In this document: positions 1-60,579 of the stretch, piece by piece | Numbering within the stretch: position 1 is the first letter of the stretch | Layout: each line of letters opens with the position of its first letter | The notes under the pieces: model-generated | The model's database searches: none | The model's input: the letters and a program-made list of their open reading frames with translations, nothing else | Told to the model about the DNA's origin: nothing | Program-made: the position numbers and the translations under genes | DNA from: Luteitalea sp. TBR-22 | GTDB lineage: Bacteria; Acidobacteriota; Vicinamibacteria; Vicinamibacterales; Vicinamibacteraceae | Assembly: GCF_016865485.1 (NCBI RefSeq) | Contig: NZ_AP024452.1 | Location: forward strand, 4,858,501-4,922,500 | Reading direction: 5' to 3' | DNA length: 64,000 nt

Positions 1-233
1 TGCACGGCGCAGATGTGCGGATGGGTGACCAACGAGGCCACGTGCGCCTGCCGACGGAAGCGCTCGACGGCCTCGGGGGTGGTGTCCGCGGTGCGGCGCA
101 GCACCTGCACGGCGACGGTGCGCTGCAGGCGGGCGTCGCGGGCCCGCCAGGTCTCGATCGCCCCGTCCTGCCCGATGAGCTCGAGCAGTTGATAGTGCGC
201 GATCTGGCGCGGCGCGGGGGAATCGACGGTCAC
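1..233 (-). CDS. Hanks-type Ser/Thr kinase-fold protein, N-terminal fragment, probable pseudokinase (cut by window edge)
   Basis: The first 77 codons of a minus-strand gene running off the left edge. The GTG start at 233 lies 19 bp after the stop of the upstream kinase gene. The reading aligns without gaps to the start of that neighbour's kinase domain, ending in THPHICAV where the neighbour has QHPHICTI. Two catalytic positions are lost. The ATP-anchoring Lys of the VAIK motif is Gln (VAVQVL, residue 43), and the helix-C Glu is also Gln (RFRRQA against RFRREA). The glycine loop is degenerate (GQDGAIETW instead of GxGGMGxV). In the Hanks family these changes normally abolish phosphotransfer, so a pseudokinase or scaffold is the better call. 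The HRD and DFG motifs and any C-terminal domains lie outside the window. Confidence 0.8.
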   Translation of the reverse strand, partial: MTVDSPAPRQIAHYQLLELIGQDGAIETWRARDARLQRTVAVQVLRRTADTTPEAVERFRRQAHVASLVTHPHICAV

Positions 234-52954: not shown

Positions 52955-55393
52955 ATGCAGGACTTCGAAACGCTCGGCGCGTTCTACCTCGGCCGTCCCT
53001 ACGATCTCGCGACCAGGACGGCGACGCCGGCGCCGCTGATGTACGACTCGCGCGACCTGCTCACGCACGCGGTCTGCATCGGCATGACCGGCAGCGGCAA
53101 GACGGGCCTGTGCATCGGCCTGCTCGAGGAGGCGCTGATCGACGGCATTCCCGCCATCGTGATCGACCCCAAGGGCGACCTGGCCAACCTCGCGCTGACG
53201 TTCCCGTCCCTGTCGGGCGAGGCGTTCGCGCCGTGGGTCAACGAGGACGAGGCGCAGCGCGCCGGCCAGGACGTGCCGACGTTCGCCGCGGCGCAGGCCG
53301 AGCGCTGGCGGAAGGGGCTCGAAGGCTGGGGCCAGGACGGCGCGCGCATCCAGCGCCTGAAGGACGCCGCGGGCGTGACGATCTACACGCCGGGGAGTTC
53401 GGCGGGCGTGCCCGTGTCGATCCTGAAGTCCTTCGCGGTGCCGCCGGCGGCCGTGCTCGAGGATCGCGATCTGCTGCGCGAGCGGTTGCAGACGACGGTG
53501 GCGAGCCTGCTGGGGCTGGCAGGCATCGATGCCGACCCCTTGCAGTCGCGCGAGCACATCCTGCTGGCGAAGATCCTCGAGACGGCGTGGCTGGCCGGCA
53601 CGGACCTCGACCTGGTCGGCATCATCCAGCAGATCCAGTCGCCGCCCTTCACGCGCATCGGCGCGCTGGAACTCGACGCCTTCTACCCGGCCAAGGAGCG
53701 CTTCGGCCTGGCGATGGCGCTCAACAACCTGCTCGCGGCCCCCGGCTTCGATCAGTGGCTCACCGGCGCGCCCCTCGACGTCGCGTCGTTCCTGCGCACC
53801 GAGGACGGACGTCCGCGCGCGGCCATCTTCTCGATCGCCCACCTGAGCGATGCCGAGCGGATGTTCTTCGTCTCGCTGCTGCTCAACGAGCTGCTCGGGT
53901 GGGTGCGCATGCAGTCGGGCACCACGAGCCTGCGCGCGCTGCTCTACATGGACGAGATCTTCGGGTACATGCCGCCGGTGGCCAACCCGCCGTCCAAGGA
54001 GCCGCTGATGCTGCTCCTCAAGCAGGCGCGGGCCTTCGGCCTCGGCGTGGTGCTGGCCACGCAGAACCCGGTCGACCTCGACTACAAGGGCCTCTCCAAC
54101 ACCGGCACGTGGTTCATCGGGCGCCTGCAGACCGAGCGCGACAAGGCGCGCGTGCTCGAGGGCCTGGCCGGTGCCGCCGGTGGCGAGCGGTTCGACCGCG
54201 CCGCGATGAGCGAGACGCTCTCGGGCCTCGGCGCGCGCGTGTTCCTGATGCACAACGTGCACGAGACGTCGGGCCCTCTCACCTTCGAGACGCGCTGGAC
54301 GCTCTCGTACCTGCGCGGGCCGTTGACGCGGACGCACATCAAGGCGCTGCGCGACGGCAGTCGGCCGGCGGCGATCGCCAGCGAGGCGACGGGCGCCGGC
54401 CCGGCAGCATCAGCGACCGGGCAGCCCCTGACGGGAGCTGCCGCCGCGCCCTCGACGGTGACAGCGCAGGAGGGAGGCGCGGCGCCGGTGTCGGCGCCAC
54501 CGGTGCTGCCCCCTGGCGTGACGGCCCTGTTCGTGCCGGCGCGTGGCGTGGCGCCGGGCGCACCGCTCGCCTACGTGCCGGCGGTGTACGTGGCCGGCGC
54601 CGTCCGCGTCGCCGACACGAAGCGGCGCATCGCCGAGACCATCCCTGTGCAGTTGCTCGTGCCGCTGCAGGCCGGGGCGACTCCGCTCGCCCTCGACCGC
54701 GCCGAGGACACCGACGTGACGCCCGAGGACCTCGAGTCCTCCCCGCGCGGGCCGGCCACCTACGCCGACCTCCCCGCGGGCGCGACCACGCCGAAGAACC
54801 TCGACGCGTGGAAGCGCGCCGTCGCCACATGGCTGTACGACACGCGCACGCTGACCCTGCTCGAGCACCGGGAGAGCGGACTGCACTCCACGCCGGGCGA
54901 GACCGAGGCGGACTTTCACGCGCGCCTGTCCGAGGCGCTGCGCGTGGCGCGTGACGCGAAGGTGGATGCCCTGCGCGCCCGGTACGCCGCGCGCCTGCAG
55001 GCGCAGGAGGAGCGGATCCGCCGGGCCGAGCAGGCGCTGGGCAAGCAGCAGCAGGAGGTCTCGGCCTCCACGGGCTCGGCGCTGCTCACAGCCGCCACCG
55101 GTGTGTTCGGCGCGCTCTTCGGCCGCAAGGCGCTCAGCGCCACCAACGCGGGGCGGATCGGCAGCGCCGCACGGGGGGCCAGCAAGGTGATGAAGGAGAA
55201 GCAGGACGTGGCGCGCGCCGAGGAGAACCTCGCGGCCGAGCACCAGAAGCTCGCGGACCTGCGCGCCGCCGTGGAATCGGAGGCGCAGGAGATCGCGGCC
55301 ACCGACGCCGGCACGGTGACGCCCCTGGTGCTGCGCCCGAAGAAGACCGACGTGACGCTCACCACCGTGTCGCTGACGTGGGTGGCACGGTAG
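52955..55393 (+). CDS. HerA-like ATPase (DUF853-type) with coiled-coil tail
   Basis: 812 residues. The Walker A motif GMTGSGKTGLCIGLLEEAL and Walker B in LLYMDEIFGYMPP are intact. IVIDPKGDLANLALTFPSLS is a HerA/VirB4-type element and LATQNPVDLDYKGLSNTGTW a sensor region with its Gln/Asn. An Ala-rich insert (about 480-535) precedes a coiled coil (about 660-740, AQEERIRRAEQALGKQQQE). It is a hexameric ATPase candidate for DNA or protein translocation. No NurA-like nuclease lies next to it. Nothing links it to a defence island. Confidence 0.85.
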   Translation: MQDFETLGAFYLGRPYDLATRTATPAPLMYDSRDLLTHAVCIGMTGSGKTGLCIGLLEEALIDGIPAIVIDPKGDLANLALTFPSLSGEAFAPWVNEDEAQRAGQDVPTFAAAQAERWRKGLEGWGQDGARIQRLKDAAGVTIYTPGSSAGVPVSILKSFAVPPAAVLEDRDLLRERLQTTVASLLGLAGIDADPLQSREHILLAKILETAWLAGTDLDLVGIIQQIQSPPFTRIGALELDAFYPAKERFGLAMALNNLLAAPGFDQWLTGAPLDVASFLRTEDGRPRAAIFSIAHLSDAERMFFVSLLLNELLGWVRMQSGTTSLRALLYMDEIFGYMPPVANPPSKEPLMLLLKQARAFGLGVVLATQNPVDLDYKGLSNTGTWFIGRLQTERDKARVLEGLAGAAGGERFDRAAMSETLSGLGARVFLMHNVHETSGPLTFETRWTLSYLRGPLTRTHIKALRDGSRPAAIASEATGAGPAASATGQPLTGAAAAPSTVTAQEGGAAPVSAPPVLPPGVTALFVPARGVAPGAPLAYVPAVYVAGAVRVADTKRRIAETIPVQLLVPLQAGATPLALDRAEDTDVTPEDLESSPRGPATYADLPAGATTPKNLDAWKRAVATWLYDTRTLTLLEHRESGLHSTPGETEADFHARLSEALRVARDAKVDALRARYAARLQAQEERIRRAEQALGKQQQEVSASTGSALLTAATGVFGALFGRKALSATNAGRIGSAARGASKVMKEKQDVARAEENLAAEHQKLADLRAAVESEAQEIAATDAGTVTPLVLRPKKTDVTLTTVSLTWVAR

Positions 55394-55427
55394 GCTCAGG
55401 GCTCAGGACTCAAGGCTCAAGGCTCAA
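55393..55427. repeat. Heptamer tandem array, unit GGCTCAR, 5 copies
   Basis: GGCTCAG x2, GACTCAA, GGCTCAA x2, starting at the HerA-like gene's stop codon. The unit is the reverse complement of the GAGCCTT heptamer at 34403-34521. Confidence 0.93.
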
Positions 55428-55533
55428 GGAATGGGAATTGGGCGCAGGCAAAGGGCGGCCGCGCCCCCGCCGGCACGAAGGCCGACGGCCGCATGACGAA
55501 GGCCAGCTGCCAATTCCGGTTTACCGTGATGCC

Positions 55534-56841
55534 GTGCTGACACGCCGCCAGGTGCTGGCGCTCGCCGTGGCCACCGCCGTTCCCGGGTCGGCGGCATGGG
55601 GCGCCGCTGCCGCACCGGCCGCCTTGCGCTGGACCGATCTGTCCCCCGCCCTGCAACGACGCTTGCGGGCCCTCGGCGTCGCCGACTTCGATGCCTGGGC
55701 GACAGCCGAGCGCGCCGACACCGTCCGGCGCGTCGAGGACGGACTCGGCGAGCACCGCGTCGCCGTGGCGCTGCAGTCGCGCCTCTGGACATCGGACGCC
55801 CCGATCGAGCCGGCGCTGAGCGCGCGCGAGTTCATCGAGCACCGCCGCGTGCCGCAGGACGCGGCGCGCCGGCTGTCGTCGTTTGCCGAGGCCCTGGCGG
55901 GCACCGATGGGCGACTCGACATGCTGCGGGCCTTGCGTCCCCGGGGGCTCGACCGCGCCGCGCTGCGGGGCCGCCTGCTCGACGACTACGCGCGCACCAT
56001 GCGGTTCCTCTACGCCAAGGAATTCGAGGCACGCAACGCCGACGAGGTGGCGCGCCTGTACCAGGATCGGGGCCTGAGCACCGACACCGGCGTCGACGGC
56101 GGCTACGCCGTGTCCGAGGCGCTCGGGACGCTGCCGATCGACCGCCCCGTCGGCCGACTCCTCATCGTCGGCCCCGGCCTCGACCTCGGTCCGCGCACCA
56201 GCCTGCACGACGACACCCTGGGCCAGACGACGCAGCCCTTCGCGGTGGTCGACGCCCTGCGCGCGCTCGGCAGGGCGGCGCCCGCGGTCCTGGTCGACAC
56301 CCTCGACGTCAACCCGGTCGTCGGCGAGGTGATCGGCACGCTGGCACGCGCCAACGCCGACGCCTCACTGGTGCTGCGTTCGTCGCTGTCGACGCGACGG
56401 CACCGGCTGCTGCCCTCGTACCTGGACTACCTGCAGACCTGGGGCCGCGCGCTCGGCGCGCCAGCATCGGCGCTGACGCCCGACGCCGATGGCCGCCCGA
56501 CGCGACACGTGCGCGTGCCGGCCGGCGCGTGGCAACGCCTGACACCCCACGCCGGGCACGTCGCGCTCGACGTCGCGCCCGGCCCCTACGACCTCATCGT
56601 CGCCACCAACGTGCTGACCTACCTCGGCGAGGCCGCTCTCGTCGCGGCGTGCGGCGCGCTGGCGCGCGCGCTGCGTCCGGGCGGGTTCCTCGTGCACAAC
56701 GAGCCCCGACCGGCGATGGAAGCGGCCGCCGTCGATGCCGGGATGCCGGTGGTGCAGGCGCGCAGCGTGGCCTTCACCGCGCCCGACGCGTCAGGTCGCG
56801 TCGAGCACGACCTGGCAGGCGTTCACCGGTTGTTGTCCTGA
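55534..56841 (+). CDS. Methyltransferase-fold protein with Tat-like signal
   Basis: About 435 residues from GTG 55534. The first residues LTRRQVLALAVATAVPGSAA with WGAAAA resemble a Tat signal (RR-x-x-L). The rest contains a SAM-fold C-terminal region with LLIVGPGLDLGPRTS and YDLIVATNVLTYLGEAALVA then RPGGFLVHNEP, the late methyltransferase motifs. A motif I GxGxG is recognisable only loosely (GPGLDLG). The exported location is unexpected for a SAM enzyme, so it may bind something else or be a Tat-exported fold relative. It ends tail-to-tail with the pseudokinase gene, overlapping by 19 bp. Confidence 0.6.
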   Translation: MLTRRQVLALAVATAVPGSAAWGAAAAPAALRWTDLSPALQRRLRALGVADFDAWATAERADTVRRVEDGLGEHRVAVALQSRLWTSDAPIEPALSAREFIEHRRVPQDAARRLSSFAEALAGTDGRLDMLRALRPRGLDRAALRGRLLDDYARTMRFLYAKEFEARNADEVARLYQDRGLSTDTGVDGGYAVSEALGTLPIDRPVGRLLIVGPGLDLGPRTSLHDDTLGQTTQPFAVVDALRALGRAAPAVLVDTLDVNPVVGEVIGTLARANADASLVLRSSLSTRRHRLLPSYLDYLQTWGRALGAPASALTPDADGRPTRHVRVPAGAWQRLTPHAGHVALDVAPGPYDLIVATNVLTYLGEAALVAACGALARALRPGGFLVHNEPRPAMEAAAVDAGMPVVQARSVAFTAPDASGRVEHDLAGVHRLLS

Positions 56842-59558
56842 GCGACCTGGGCGCCGACGACCGACGAGGCGTGCCCGTCGATGCGGGCCATCCGCGCGAG
56901 GAAGCGCGGGTCGCGCCGCAGGGGATCGAGGCGCGAGTCGACGCGTGCGTAAGCCAGGCGCGACGAATTGGCGTCGATGGCCCGGTCGAGCCACTCGAGG
57001 GCCCGCGTGGCGTCGCCGAGGCTGACGTACGCCAGGGCGATCCAGAAGGCGCCGTCGCCGGTCGGGCGCGTGTCGTACATGGCCCGCAGCCGCGCCAGCG
57101 CCTGCTGCGCCTCGCGCGACTTGCCGGCGTCGTGGTGGATCTTCACCAGTTGCGAGAGGACGAACGGATCCTCGGCGGCGTGCTGCGCGCCGACCGCCTG
57201 GCAGGCCTGCAGCGCGTCGGCGGTGCGCCGCAGTTCCGTGTAGGCCTTGCACAACCCGATGTAGGCCGCCGAGTACTGCGAGTCGAGGCGCAGCAGCGTC
57301 TCGTAGGTGCGCGCCGCCTCGTCGAAGCGCTTGGCGTAGTGCAACGTCGCACCGAGGTAGCCGCGCAACAGCGAGGATCGCTGGTTCAGCTTCTGCGCCT
57401 GCGACACCTGCTCGACGGCCTCGTCGACGCGCCCGCGCCCGGCCAGCAGCATCGCGTACCTGATGCGCGCGTACTCGCCGCTGGGGTTGAGCGCCAGCGA
57501 CCGCGTGAAGTGGCGCTCGGCCTGCTCGGCGTTGTGGCGCTCCGCGTACAGGTCGCCGAGCGCCGCGTACGCCTCCGCGCTGCGGTCGTCGAGGCTCAGG
57601 GCCTTCGAGATGACGTTCTGCGCCAGCGGCAGCGCCTCGTCGGCGCGCAGGGCGTTGTGCCGATAGAGCGAGAGCAGCGCCTCGGCCCACTTGGCGTAGG
57701 CGAGCACGAAATCGGGCGCCACCTCGGTGGCCCGCCGGAACGATTCGGCCGCCTCCTCCACCTCCTTGCGGCCGCCGCGGCCGAGCCGGCTCGTGCCGAG
57801 CGTGTAGGCCTGCATCGCCTCGGGGTTGTCCAGGGGCAGCGCGGTGCGCAGCGACGGGCGCTCGCCCTCGGGCGCGGCGAGCTCGGCGACGACCAGTTGG
57901 GTCAGCGACGCCGTGAACTCGCGGACCGGCGTGTTGGCGGTCATCGACTGCCGCACCGCGCGGGTCGGGCCACCGGCCCTCACGATGTTGAGCTGCGCCT
58001 CGAACCCGGCATCCTGCCGGGAAGCGGCCACCTCGACGTACACGTCGGCATCGACGGCGTGCATGATCGCGGCGACCGGCTGGCCCAGCATCGCCTCCAC
58101 GGCCACCGGCGCGATCACCCGGAACGGCGGCGACGAGCTCAGATCCTGCGCCAGTTGCGCGATCACCAGCGGCGTGAGCGACGGATCGGCGCCCGCGGCG
58201 CTGCCGATCGCCAGGCGCACGTCGTCGCGAGGCGCAACGGTGCGCCCGTCACCGCCGGCGCGCGTTCCCGAGGTGGCCAGCGACGTCGAGTGGCCGCGCC
58301 ACGCGAGGTCGCGCGGCAGCATCGACCAGGCGACGATGCCCCCGACCACCACGGCACCCGCCGCGATGGCGATGAGGCCCCACGGCACCACCGGCGCGGG
58401 CGGCGGCGGGAGCGGCGTGGCCGGCGGAGGACTCGTCTCGACCACCGGAGCCTGTCCGGGTGGCGGCAGCACCGGCTGCTTGCGGGTCCAGGTATCCCAC
58501 CCCAGCGTGCGCGACAGCGCTTCCTTGACCGCGGCGATGCTGCTGTACCGCCGGTCGGCGTCGGGATCGCAGGCGCGCTCGACGATCCGGATGAAGTCGT
58601 CGGGCAGGTCGGGGCGCAGGTCGGCCAGCGGGATACGTTCGGCCCGCTCGTACCGGGCGGCGAGGTCGGCCAGCGAGACCGCCCGCACCGGGTACGCACC
58701 CGACACGAGGTAATAGAGGACGACGCCGAGGCTGTAGATGTCGCTGCGTTGCGAAGGCGGGGCCCCGGCCGCCACCTCGGGGGCGAGGAACGGCAGCGTC
58801 GCGGGCTGCAGGTCCAGGGCTTCGAGCGGCACTCCCCGCGGCCACACGTCCATCAGGACGAGCCGCCCACCGGCTTCGCGCACGATGTTGTCGGGCGACA
58901 GCAGCCCGTGCGCGAGGCCCTCGCGGTGCAGCGCCGCGACGGCGCGGCAGAGTTCCCAGCCCACCAACGCGGCTTCCCGGGCGCTGAAGGTGCCCTGCGA
59001 CACCACGACCTGGTCGAGGCTGCGGCCGTCGACGTACTCCATCACCAGGCCGGTCTGATCGCCGTGCTGCTCGGCGCCGTACACCTCGACGGCGTTGGGA
59101 TGCCGCACCTTGGCGAGCGCCTGGCCCGTCGCCAGGAAGGCGACGGCGACCTCCGGTGGAGACTGGTCGGGAAGGAAGCGGATGACCACGTCGCGATGGA
59201 GGTGGTCGGTGGCGCGGACCACGCGGCCCAGCGTCCCCGGGCCGAGCGATCGGAGCAGTCGATAGGGCCCCCACATGCCGAGATCCGGCTCGTCGGGATC
59301 GACGACGCGATCGGGGGGTGGAGGTGGGTGGAGCTCGGGCTCGTTCGGCGCGGGCGGTGTTGCCGCGAGCGACAGCTCGTCCGGCCCTTCGTCGGGCAGG
59401 CTGCGATGCAGCTCGGCGATGTCAGCGATGACGCGCAGCTGCCGGAAGATCGCGCGCTCGGCGTCGGTGCCGAGCTCGGCTTCCAGGGCGGCCCAGTCCA
59501 CCGCCGCGCCGTCTGCGAGCGTGGCGGCCAGGTCCGTGAGCCCGCGGTCTGTGCGCAT
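56823..59558 (-). CDS. Hanks-type pseudokinase with transmembrane segment and TPR tail
   Basis: 911 residues. The kinase fold is recognisable (about 99-375) but catalytic residues are missing. The VAIK Lys is Arg127 (VVIRFL), the helix-C Glu is absent (FLATGQALAK), HRD-x-K is HGLLSPDN (Asp to Leu219, Lys to Ser221), and DFG is DVW (237-239). The glycine loop GPGTLGRV and the APE motif (LAPEVAAG) remain. A proline-rich linker, a transmembrane helix (VPWGLIAIAAGAVVVGGIVA) and a long TPR region (about 590-880) follow. It is a scaffold or sensor rather than an enzyme. It is divergent from the LolA-like gene with 67 bp between starts. Confidence 0.85.
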   Translation of the reverse strand: MRTDRGLTDLAATLADGAAVDWAALEAELGTDAERAIFRQLRVIADIAELHRSLPDEGPDELSLAATPPAPNEPELHPPPPPDRVVDPDEPDLGMWGPYRLLRSLGPGTLGRVVRATDHLHRDVVIRFLPDQSPPEVAVAFLATGQALAKVRHPNAVEVYGAEQHGDQTGLVMEYVDGRSLDQVVVSQGTFSAREAALVGWELCRAVAALHREGLAHGLLSPDNIVREAGGRLVLMDVWPRGVPLEALDLQPATLPFLAPEVAAGAPPSQRSDIYSLGVVLYYLVSGAYPVRAVSLADLAARYERAERIPLADLRPDLPDDFIRIVERACDPDADRRYSSIAAVKEALSRTLGWDTWTRKQPVLPPPGQAPVVETSPPPATPLPPPPAPVVPWGLIAIAAGAVVVGGIVAWSMLPRDLAWRGHSTSLATSGTRAGGDGRTVAPRDDVRLAIGSAAGADPSLTPLVIAQLAQDLSSSPPFRVIAPVAVEAMLGQPVAAIMHAVDADVYVEVAASRQDAGFEAQLNIVRAGGPTRAVRQSMTANTPVREFTASLTQLVVAELAAPEGERPSLRTALPLDNPEAMQAYTLGTSRLGRGGRKEVEEAAESFRRATEVAPDFVLAYAKWAEALLSLYRHNALRADEALPLAQNVISKALSLDDRSAEAYAALGDLYAERHNAEQAERHFTRSLALNPSGEYARIRYAMLLAGRGRVDEAVEQVSQAQKLNQRSSLLRGYLGATLHYAKRFDEAARTYETLLRLDSQYSAAYIGLCKAYTELRRTADALQACQAVGAQHAAEDPFVLSQLVKIHHDAGKSREAQQALARLRAMYDTRPTGDGAFWIALAYVSLGDATRALEWLDRAIDANSSRLAYARVDSRLDPLRRDPRFLARMARIDGHASSVVGAQVAQDNNR

Positions 59559-59625
59559 GCGGAAAGTGGCCTATTGTCGCACAGGTCCCTCGGCCGGTCG
59601 GTGACGCCGACCGTCCTAGAATCGA

Positions 59626-60579
59626 GTGGTGTTGCTCTCCGTTCTTCCACGCGCCCGCCTCGGCGCCGCGCTGCTCGTCCTCGCCAGCACGGTCCTGTCG
59701 GGGTGGACGGCCGTGCCTGCGGTCCCGCTGACGACAGTCGGCATGCACCGACAGCCCTCGGGCTCATCGGGAACTCCCCTACCGGACCTGGCCCAGCTGA
59801 TCAAGGAAGTCAGGGCCGGCCTCCGCACGGACGAGCAATTGCTGAGGCAGTACACGTTCAAGGAACGTCGCCGCGACGTGAATGTGTCGAAGCTCGGCAA
59901 GGTGCAGCTCGGCCCATGGCGCGAGTTCGAGGTGTATCCCTCGGACGTGCCGGGCGAGACCTACAAACGGCTGGTCAGCGTCAACGACGTGCCCCTGTCG
60001 GCCGCCGAGCTCGAGAAGCGCGACGCCGCACACCGCCAGCGCGTGCTCGACCAGCTCGAGCAGATCCGGGTCGAGACGCCGGCGCAGCGCGACAAGCGCC
60101 TGGCCAGGAAGGCCAGGGACGCGCGCGAGGAACAGGACGTCATCGACGACGTGTTCGCCGTCTACGAGGTGGCGCTGGTCGGCCGCGAGGTGCGCGACGG
60201 CCGGCAGACGATCGTCGCCACGCTCACCCCGCGCAAGAACGCGCGCACCCGGAGCGATGCCGGCAAGTTCCTGAAGAAGATCAAGGGGCGGGCGTGGATC
60301 AACGAGGCCGACCGGCAGGTGATCCGGACGGAACTCGAGGCCGTCGAGGACATCACCTTCGGTCTCGGCCTGCTGGCCCGCATGCAGAAGGGCAGCACGA
60401 TCATGTTCCGCCGCACGCTGGTCAACGGCGAGATCTGGCTGCCCGCCGAGGCCCAGTACAAGGTCGTCGGCAAGACGCTCGTCTTCCGCAAGTTCGCCCT
60501 CGAGTCGACCACCGTCTTCTCCGACTACAAGAAGTTCGGCGTCAGCACGAGCGAAGAGGTGACGGGCGCGGTGAAGTGA
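59626..60579 (+). CDS. Secreted LolA-like/outer-membrane-lipoprotein-sorting-type protein
   Basis: 317 residues from GTG 59626 (GTG 59629 also in frame). Signal peptide (LGAALLVLASTVLSGWTAVP). The mature part carries QLLRQYTFKERRRDVNVSKL, then ETYKRLVSVNDVPLSAAELE and KGSTIMFRRTLVNGEIWLPA and EAQYKVVGKTLVFRKFALES, as in Acidobacterial families of secreted proteins with a LolA/LolB-like half-barrel. Function unknown. The 3' gap holds paired palindromes and heptamers. Confidence 0.7.
   Translation: MVLLSVLPRARLGAALLVLASTVLSGWTAVPAVPLTTVGMHRQPSGSSGTPLPDLAQLIKEVRAGLRTDEQLLRQYTFKERRRDVNVSKLGKVQLGPWREFEVYPSDVPGETYKRLVSVNDVPLSAAELEKRDAAHRQRVLDQLEQIRVETPAQRDKRLARKARDAREEQDVIDDVFAVYEVALVGREVRDGRQTIVATLTPRKNARTRSDAGKFLKKIKGRAWINEADRQVIRTELEAVEDITFGLGLLARMQKGSTIMFRRTLVNGEIWLPAEAQYKVVGKTLVFRKFALESTTVFSDYKKFGVSTSEEVTGAVK

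Follow-up and report, generated by a model that had tools for sequence, protein, structure and literature searches.

What becomes of a receptor kinase that has lost the residues it needs for catalysis? The question is raised by a 911-residue protein encoded in the window analysed here, a 64,000-nucleotide stretch of Luteitalea sp. TBR-22 (NZ_AP024452.1, positions 4,858,501 to 4,922,500). A preliminary description of this DNA had taken the protein, which joins a Hanks-type kinase domain to a membrane helix and a tail of tetratricopeptide repeats (TPR), for a pseudokinase with almost all catalytic residues replaced, serving as a sensor or scaffold rather than as an enzyme. Our analyses indicate that the catalytic residues were lost along one branch of the kinase tree and that the outcome has since been maintained. 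We consider it fairly probable, if well short of certain, that the protein is a membrane-anchored pseudokinase in which a TPR receptor would be linked to a domain on the cytosolic side that regulates an active partner by docking or by nucleotide sensing.

Kinase fold and catalytic residues

The kinase part has kept its fold, as the preliminary description had it. Pfam Pkinase matched residues 99–344 (92.9 bits, well above the cut-off of 31.7; E = 3 × 10−26), and AlphaFold2, run on 13 aligned sequences, modelled this part with a mean predicted local distance difference test score (pLDDT) of 92. The best matches among solved structures were Mycobacterium tuberculosis PknA and PknB, with Z about 30 (Foldseek, VIA-align); for PknA, Z was 30.6 and the root-mean-square deviation 2.3 over 260 residues, at 30% identity. 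The two-lobed fold and the profile match place the domain among the Hanks-type (PknB-like) kinases, although PknA and PknB are active enzymes and share only about 30% identity with it.

Motifs were mapped on a profile alignment of 111 kinase-domain hits, some of them from overlapping loci. Arg127 aligns to the VAIK Lys (strand beta-3 reads VVIR), Thr144 to the helix-C Glu, His217-Gly218-Leu219 to HRD, Ser221 to the catalytic-loop Lys and Asp237-Val238-Trp239 to DFG, in agreement with the residue assignments first proposed. The replacements are real; ‘almost all’ was nevertheless an overstatement, since both metal ligands, Asn224 (of HRDxKxxN) and Asp237 (the Asp of DFG), are retained together with glycines 106, 108 and 111 of GxGxxG. 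The APE motif also persists, within LAPEV (residues 258–262). Read from these residues, the pattern appears to be one of catalysis removed and a metal and nucleotide site partly kept, with no wholesale loss.

By the definition given in a 2025 review (PMC12599244), a pseudokinase lacks at least one of the beta-3 Lys, the HRD Asp and the DFG Asp. Two of these three diagnostic residues, the beta-3 Lys and the HRD Asp, are missing from the protein and from all its orthologues, four in total, where the losses are shared and frozen, so that the name pseudokinase is well supported. The substitutions are not due to chance or misalignment, because the four orthologues share the same letters and the closest paralogue of the same genome is intact at each position. 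Direct phosphotransfer by the 911-residue protein seems, from its residues, very unlikely. Weak residual activity, as in some pseudokinases, would fit the retained metal ligands and glycine loop, and in EphB6 and KSR1 nucleotide binding is compatible with an Arg at the beta-3 Lys position (PMC12599244). With the base, the loop Lys, the beta-3 Lys and the helix-C Glu jointly gone, and Trp replacing the DFG Gly, we nevertheless hold such activity to be extremely improbable.

The retained metal ligands also recall SelO, an AMPylating pseudokinase, and with it the idea of an unusual transferase (of AMP, for example) that would use Asn224 and Asp237. Like SelO, the present protein retains the Asn and the DFG Asp while the HRD Asp and the loop Lys have gone. 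According to PMC8097203, Asn253 and Asp262 of SelO hold the metal, Asp262 being also described as the base, and its gamma-phosphate is handled by Lys113 with Glu136. This beta-3 Lys and helix-C Glu pair, which SelO retains, is Arg127 and Thr144 here. A Pfam search admitting E values of up to 10 listed no SelO family, although weak matches above about E = 0.1 had mostly been filtered out. An Asp at position 223 is common in ordinary kinases. The change from Gln to Asp223 is among the fixed changes here, and the loop HGLLSPDN can be set beside Hgvmntdn of SelO (PMC12599244). On balance we regard a SelO-like transferase as very improbable.

Comparison with described pseudokinases

Bacterial pseudokinases are largely unexplored experimentally, according to the review (PMC12599244), from which the features of the classes compared below are taken. 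DYD pseudokinases resemble the protein in the beta-3 Lys-to-Arg change, the lost helix-C Glu (Arg127 and Thr144 here), the retained catalytic-loop Asn and the membrane association. Instead of the DYD motif, however, the present protein has DVW, Trp239 standing where their second Asp pairs with the Arg, and DYD proteins belong to other phyla, Actinobacteria and Firmicutes. ActPs2 proteins share the beta-3 Arg and a C-terminal membrane helix; they differ in an HRD Asp-to-Asn change, a DFG deletion and long insertions, whereas the present protein has HGL, DVW with Asp237 present, and no large insertion in the kinase domain. GLW pseudokinases, with GLW for HRD and LLLL/W in beta-3, do not correspond to the HGL and VVIR found here. 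ActPs3, represented by MviN of M. tuberculosis, is likewise a PknB-kind membrane pseudokinase, but all its motifs are degraded and its activation loop is deleted, while Asn224 and Asp237 are kept here and the activation loop is only slightly short compared with that of the active paralogue. CP1 pseudokinases carry COG3899, and both CP1 and DLHK proteins are without membrane helices. Judged by these features, the protein is none of DYD, ActPs2, ActPs3 or GLW.

The strings ‘acidobacteri’ and ‘tpr’ are absent from the main text of the review, and literature searches on Acidobacteria pseudokinases, Luteitalea kinases and Acidobacteria kinase/TPR proteins found no paper on this protein. It represents a new, seemingly genus-restricted variant of the bacterial membrane pseudokinases.

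Orthologues and active relatives

Orthologues at 73–77% identity occur in three further genomes of the genus (G001, G002 and G004), that is, in four of five genomes including the one studied, and every motif substitution is common to the four. Those of G001 and G002 span the whole length of the protein. A scan of genome contigs returned a single locus (L061), which has the same letters at the scored positions as the gene on G004:C167 and was counted as one gene with L034. The fifth genome, G003, has no orthologue; its absence says little, because this fragmented assembly also lacks the neighbouring genes. No orthologue was found in two sister-genus genomes, nor in a sample of 149 genomes from the order, each represented by its eight best candidates, and a single scan of viral contigs with the dead-kinase alignment gave no match.

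An active kinase with the same order of parts is encoded elsewhere in the TBR-22 genome (L052, G000:C1:3822020-3823606). It is 42% identical to the pseudokinase over residues 7–532, with values of 49% for the kinase domain and 38% for the TPR region, and, unlike it, has every catalytic residue intact. Outside the genus, the best matches scored no higher than about 273 bits. Where the locus was retrieved, all three diagnostic residues are present, apart from L063 and rows of insufficient length to judge. The profile held 56 rows, from loci L032–L064 and L078–L094 and including the active paralogue: four rows of orthologues (of which L034 and L061 are one gene), L063, three rows too short and 48 with all three residues. 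In L063 (G006:C26:32582-33658), a relative from the sister genus, the HRD Asp is changed to Asn and the loop Lys to Thr; its loss is probably separate. Close homologues with intact motifs had been named in advance as grounds for abandoning the pseudokinase claim. The close orthologues are not intact, and the intact relatives, about 40% identical, make up a paralogous group of their own.

In a tree of 92 kinase domains the four orthologues formed one clade (support 100/100), nested in a group (93/93) of mostly intact kinases together with the active paralogue and sister-genus kinases. The stem of the clade measures 0.92 substitutions per column, against 0.04–0.11 for its tips. A long stem followed by short tips implies that the catalytic residues were lost along the stem and that the resulting state was preserved from then on, that is, rapid change and then freezing.

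In the sister genus, the block containing the Ku, TerC and neighbour genes is present, and the slot of the pseudokinase gene holds a TPR-only protein. This protein is secreted-looking and its gene is divergent from the same neighbour (L153 5962-7491; L154 7647-9227). Whether it is orthologous to the TPR part is doubtful (27% identity over 154 residues). A sister-genus kinase in this slot was considered as the ancestor and rejected, as a search of the two 17-kb stretches with the kinase profile gave no match. Different genes in the same slot mean that one of the two was inserted there after the genera parted, and we infer that the later arrival was the pseudokinase.

Selection and proposed function

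Since a single burst of change, the dead domain has been under strong purifying selection. The ratio of non-synonymous to synonymous substitution rates (dN/dS) in the kinase domain is 0.086–0.132 (six pairs), and HREGLAHGLLSPDNIVREAGGRLVLMDVWP, a 30-residue stretch running through the dead catalytic loop to DVWP (residues 211–240), is identical in all four orthologues. Over the segment from the catalytic loop to APE (residues 211–262), identity is equal in the two groups, 87–96% in the dead gene and 86–96% in the active paralogue. Columns fixed within each group but different between them number 82 of the 257 in the kinase domain and include all the changed catalytic ones.

In the function we propose, the protein would have arisen by duplication and relocation of a kinase–membrane helix–TPR receptor within the genus Luteitalea. 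The C-terminal TPR region, which we infer to lie outside the inner membrane, would sense a protein or the state of the envelope and pass the signal to the cytosolic dead-kinase domain. Presumably unable to transfer phosphate, this domain would still adopt a defined, perhaps nucleotide-stabilised, shape, and in that shape would dock to an active Hanks-type kinase or its substrate and activate, inhibit or titrate it. Our guess is that the best candidate partner is the active paralogue of the same architecture. The nearest worked example of how such a protein could act is MviN: once phosphorylated by PknB, its dead kinase domain recruits a regulator (PMC12599244). The sensor or scaffold role in place of an enzymatic one, as proposed at the outset, is the most likely reading; the preliminary description did not mention the retained metal-binding residues, which leave room for nucleotide or metal binding or even for an unusual transferase. 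A bolder version, in which the receptor kinase of this free-living bacterium was rebuilt on one branch into a non-phosphorylating metal- and nucleotide-binding domain driven by the TPR sensor and possibly transferring AMP or another group via Asn224 and Asp237, seems quite improbable.

Several observations weigh against a regulatory role of the dead domain. The kinase domain of the active paralogue has a dN/dS of 0.037–0.075 in the same four genomes, so that the dead domain evolves about twice as fast, and identity over the whole domain is 84–89% for the dead gene against 91–95% for the live one; overall, the dead domain is less constrained than the live kinase. No kinase gene adjoins the pseudokinase gene, and the nearest active paralogue lies about 1.1 Mb away. 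Pseudokinase and active paralogue are each present in four of the five genomes, but this co-occurrence was set aside as evidence of partnership, the genome without them (G003) lacking the neighbouring genes too.

The kinase domain might instead be an inert, stably folded anchor, with the TPR receptor part alone still mattering. Its lower conservation would suit this, as would the TPR region, which is better conserved in the dead gene (84–87%, three pairs) than in the active paralogue (76–82%, six pairs), and the secreted-looking TPR-only protein that occupies this slot in the sister genus. An anchor would, however, have no need of an identical catalytic loop-to-DVWP stretch, nor does it agree with the strong purifying selection on the domain, and we consider it unlikely. 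The faster evolution could also point to a gene decaying toward loss; full-length open frames in the three genomes with a complete locus, low dN/dS and conserved neighbours already contradict this, and leave it virtually no probability.

Gene organisation and neighbourhood

The position, strand and reading frame of the gene were confirmed; coordinates of the gene, its parts and its neighbour are collected in Table 1. The hydrophobic stretch taken for the membrane helix is matched in the orthologues, and the TPR tail is recognised by Pfam TPR families in the C-terminal half (about residues 650–890), as the preliminary description had proposed for both. Beyond KEALSRTLGWDTWTRK the juxtamembrane linker varies among orthologues. 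The alpha/beta region had no Pfam match even when E values of up to 10 were admitted, and a FlgO- or CadC-like label for it would be our assumption, Pfam giving nothing there. The model of the C-terminal half, built from one sequence, had a pLDDT of 63 and was too weak for a fold search; in the TPR region, pLDDT was 59–94 per block from about residue 616 on and lower before it.

Table 1. Features of the pseudokinase locus (positions in the window).
Feature	Position	Strand	Basis
Pseudokinase–membrane helix–TPR gene, 911 residues	56823..59558	-	Open reading frame (ORF); orthologues share conserved N-terminal start
Kinase-fold domain, residues 96–352	58503..59273	-	Pfam Pkinase; AlphaFold2 pLDDT 92; PknA/PknB matches
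Glycine-rich loop GPGTLG, residues 106–111, three glycines kept	59226..59243	-	Motif table
Arg127 replacing VAIK Lys	59178..59180	-	Profile alignment
Thr144 replacing helix-C Glu	59127..59129	-	Profile alignment
Dead catalytic loop H-G-L-L-S-P-D-N, residues 217–224 (Leu219 for HRD Asp, Ser221 for Lys; Asn224 retained)	58887..58910	-	Profile alignment
DVW replacing DFG, residues 237–239 (metal-binding Asp237 kept, Gly to Trp)	58842..58850	-	Profile alignment
APE motif, residues 259–261	58776..58784	-	Motif table
KEALSRTLGWDTWTRK, residues 345–360, directly after kinase fold, invariant in 4/4 orthologues	58479..58526	-	
Probable membrane helix, residues 392–415	58314..58385	-	Hydrophobic stretch read by eye from sequence
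Alpha/beta region, residues 443–570	57849..58232	-	Helices and strands predicted at low confidence only
TPR region, residues 573–890	56889..57842	-	Pfam TPR families; all-helical model
Divergent neighbour, 317 residues, signal-like N-terminus	59626..60579	+	Adjoins pseudokinase gene in 4/4 genomes having the latter
Gap between divergent genes, 67 bases	59559..59625	.	Coordinates

Genes for the 317-residue neighbour, TerC and Ku flank the pseudokinase gene in all four genomes. The neighbour matched no Pfam family, and the short gap means that the promoters of the two divergent genes must be very close or overlapping. At their 3′ ends, the pseudokinase gene and a convergent ORF (55378-56841) with a weak methyltransferase match overlap by 19 bases (56823-56841).

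Other degenerate kinases of the genome

At least one diagnostic residue is missing from 6 of 45 kinase domains in the TBR-22 genome, a count that leaves out three short fragments and in which the alignment of L073 and L077, on very long branches, is unsure. A second degenerate kinase-like domain lies at the left edge of the window (about 1-207, minus strand; full gene L074, G000:C1:4857903-4858694), with Gln for the VAIK Lys, His for the HRD Asp, Gln for the Asn and Gly for the DFG Asp; it is not close to the studied gene in the tree. Another kinase domain (L029, G000:C1:2198431-2199231) is broken by one in-frame TAG.

Two of the six dead domains occur side by side with a live one. In one 633-residue frame (L026, G000:C1:5488213-5489856) a degenerate kinase domain (beta-3 Lys to Arg, HRD Asp to Gly) comes after an intact one, a tandem resembling that of JAK kinases. 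Two adjacent kinases (L098, G000:C1:2965307-2966092 and 2967868-2968836) group as sisters in the tree (100/99); L075, the first of them, has lost the beta-3 Lys and the DFG Asp, and L024, the second, is intact. G004:C198 seems to carry a similar pair. The tandem and the adjacent pair show that live/dead kinase pairing exists in Luteitalea sp. TBR-22, which speaks for the regulatory role proposed above.

With 6 of 45 kinase domains lacking a diagnostic residue, dead kinases seem to be a normal component of signalling in this organism. In the case described here, the dead kinase is available together with its live paralogue, built in the same way, and with four related species, so that the step from enzyme to regulator can be located on a tree, followed residue by residue and put to the test.

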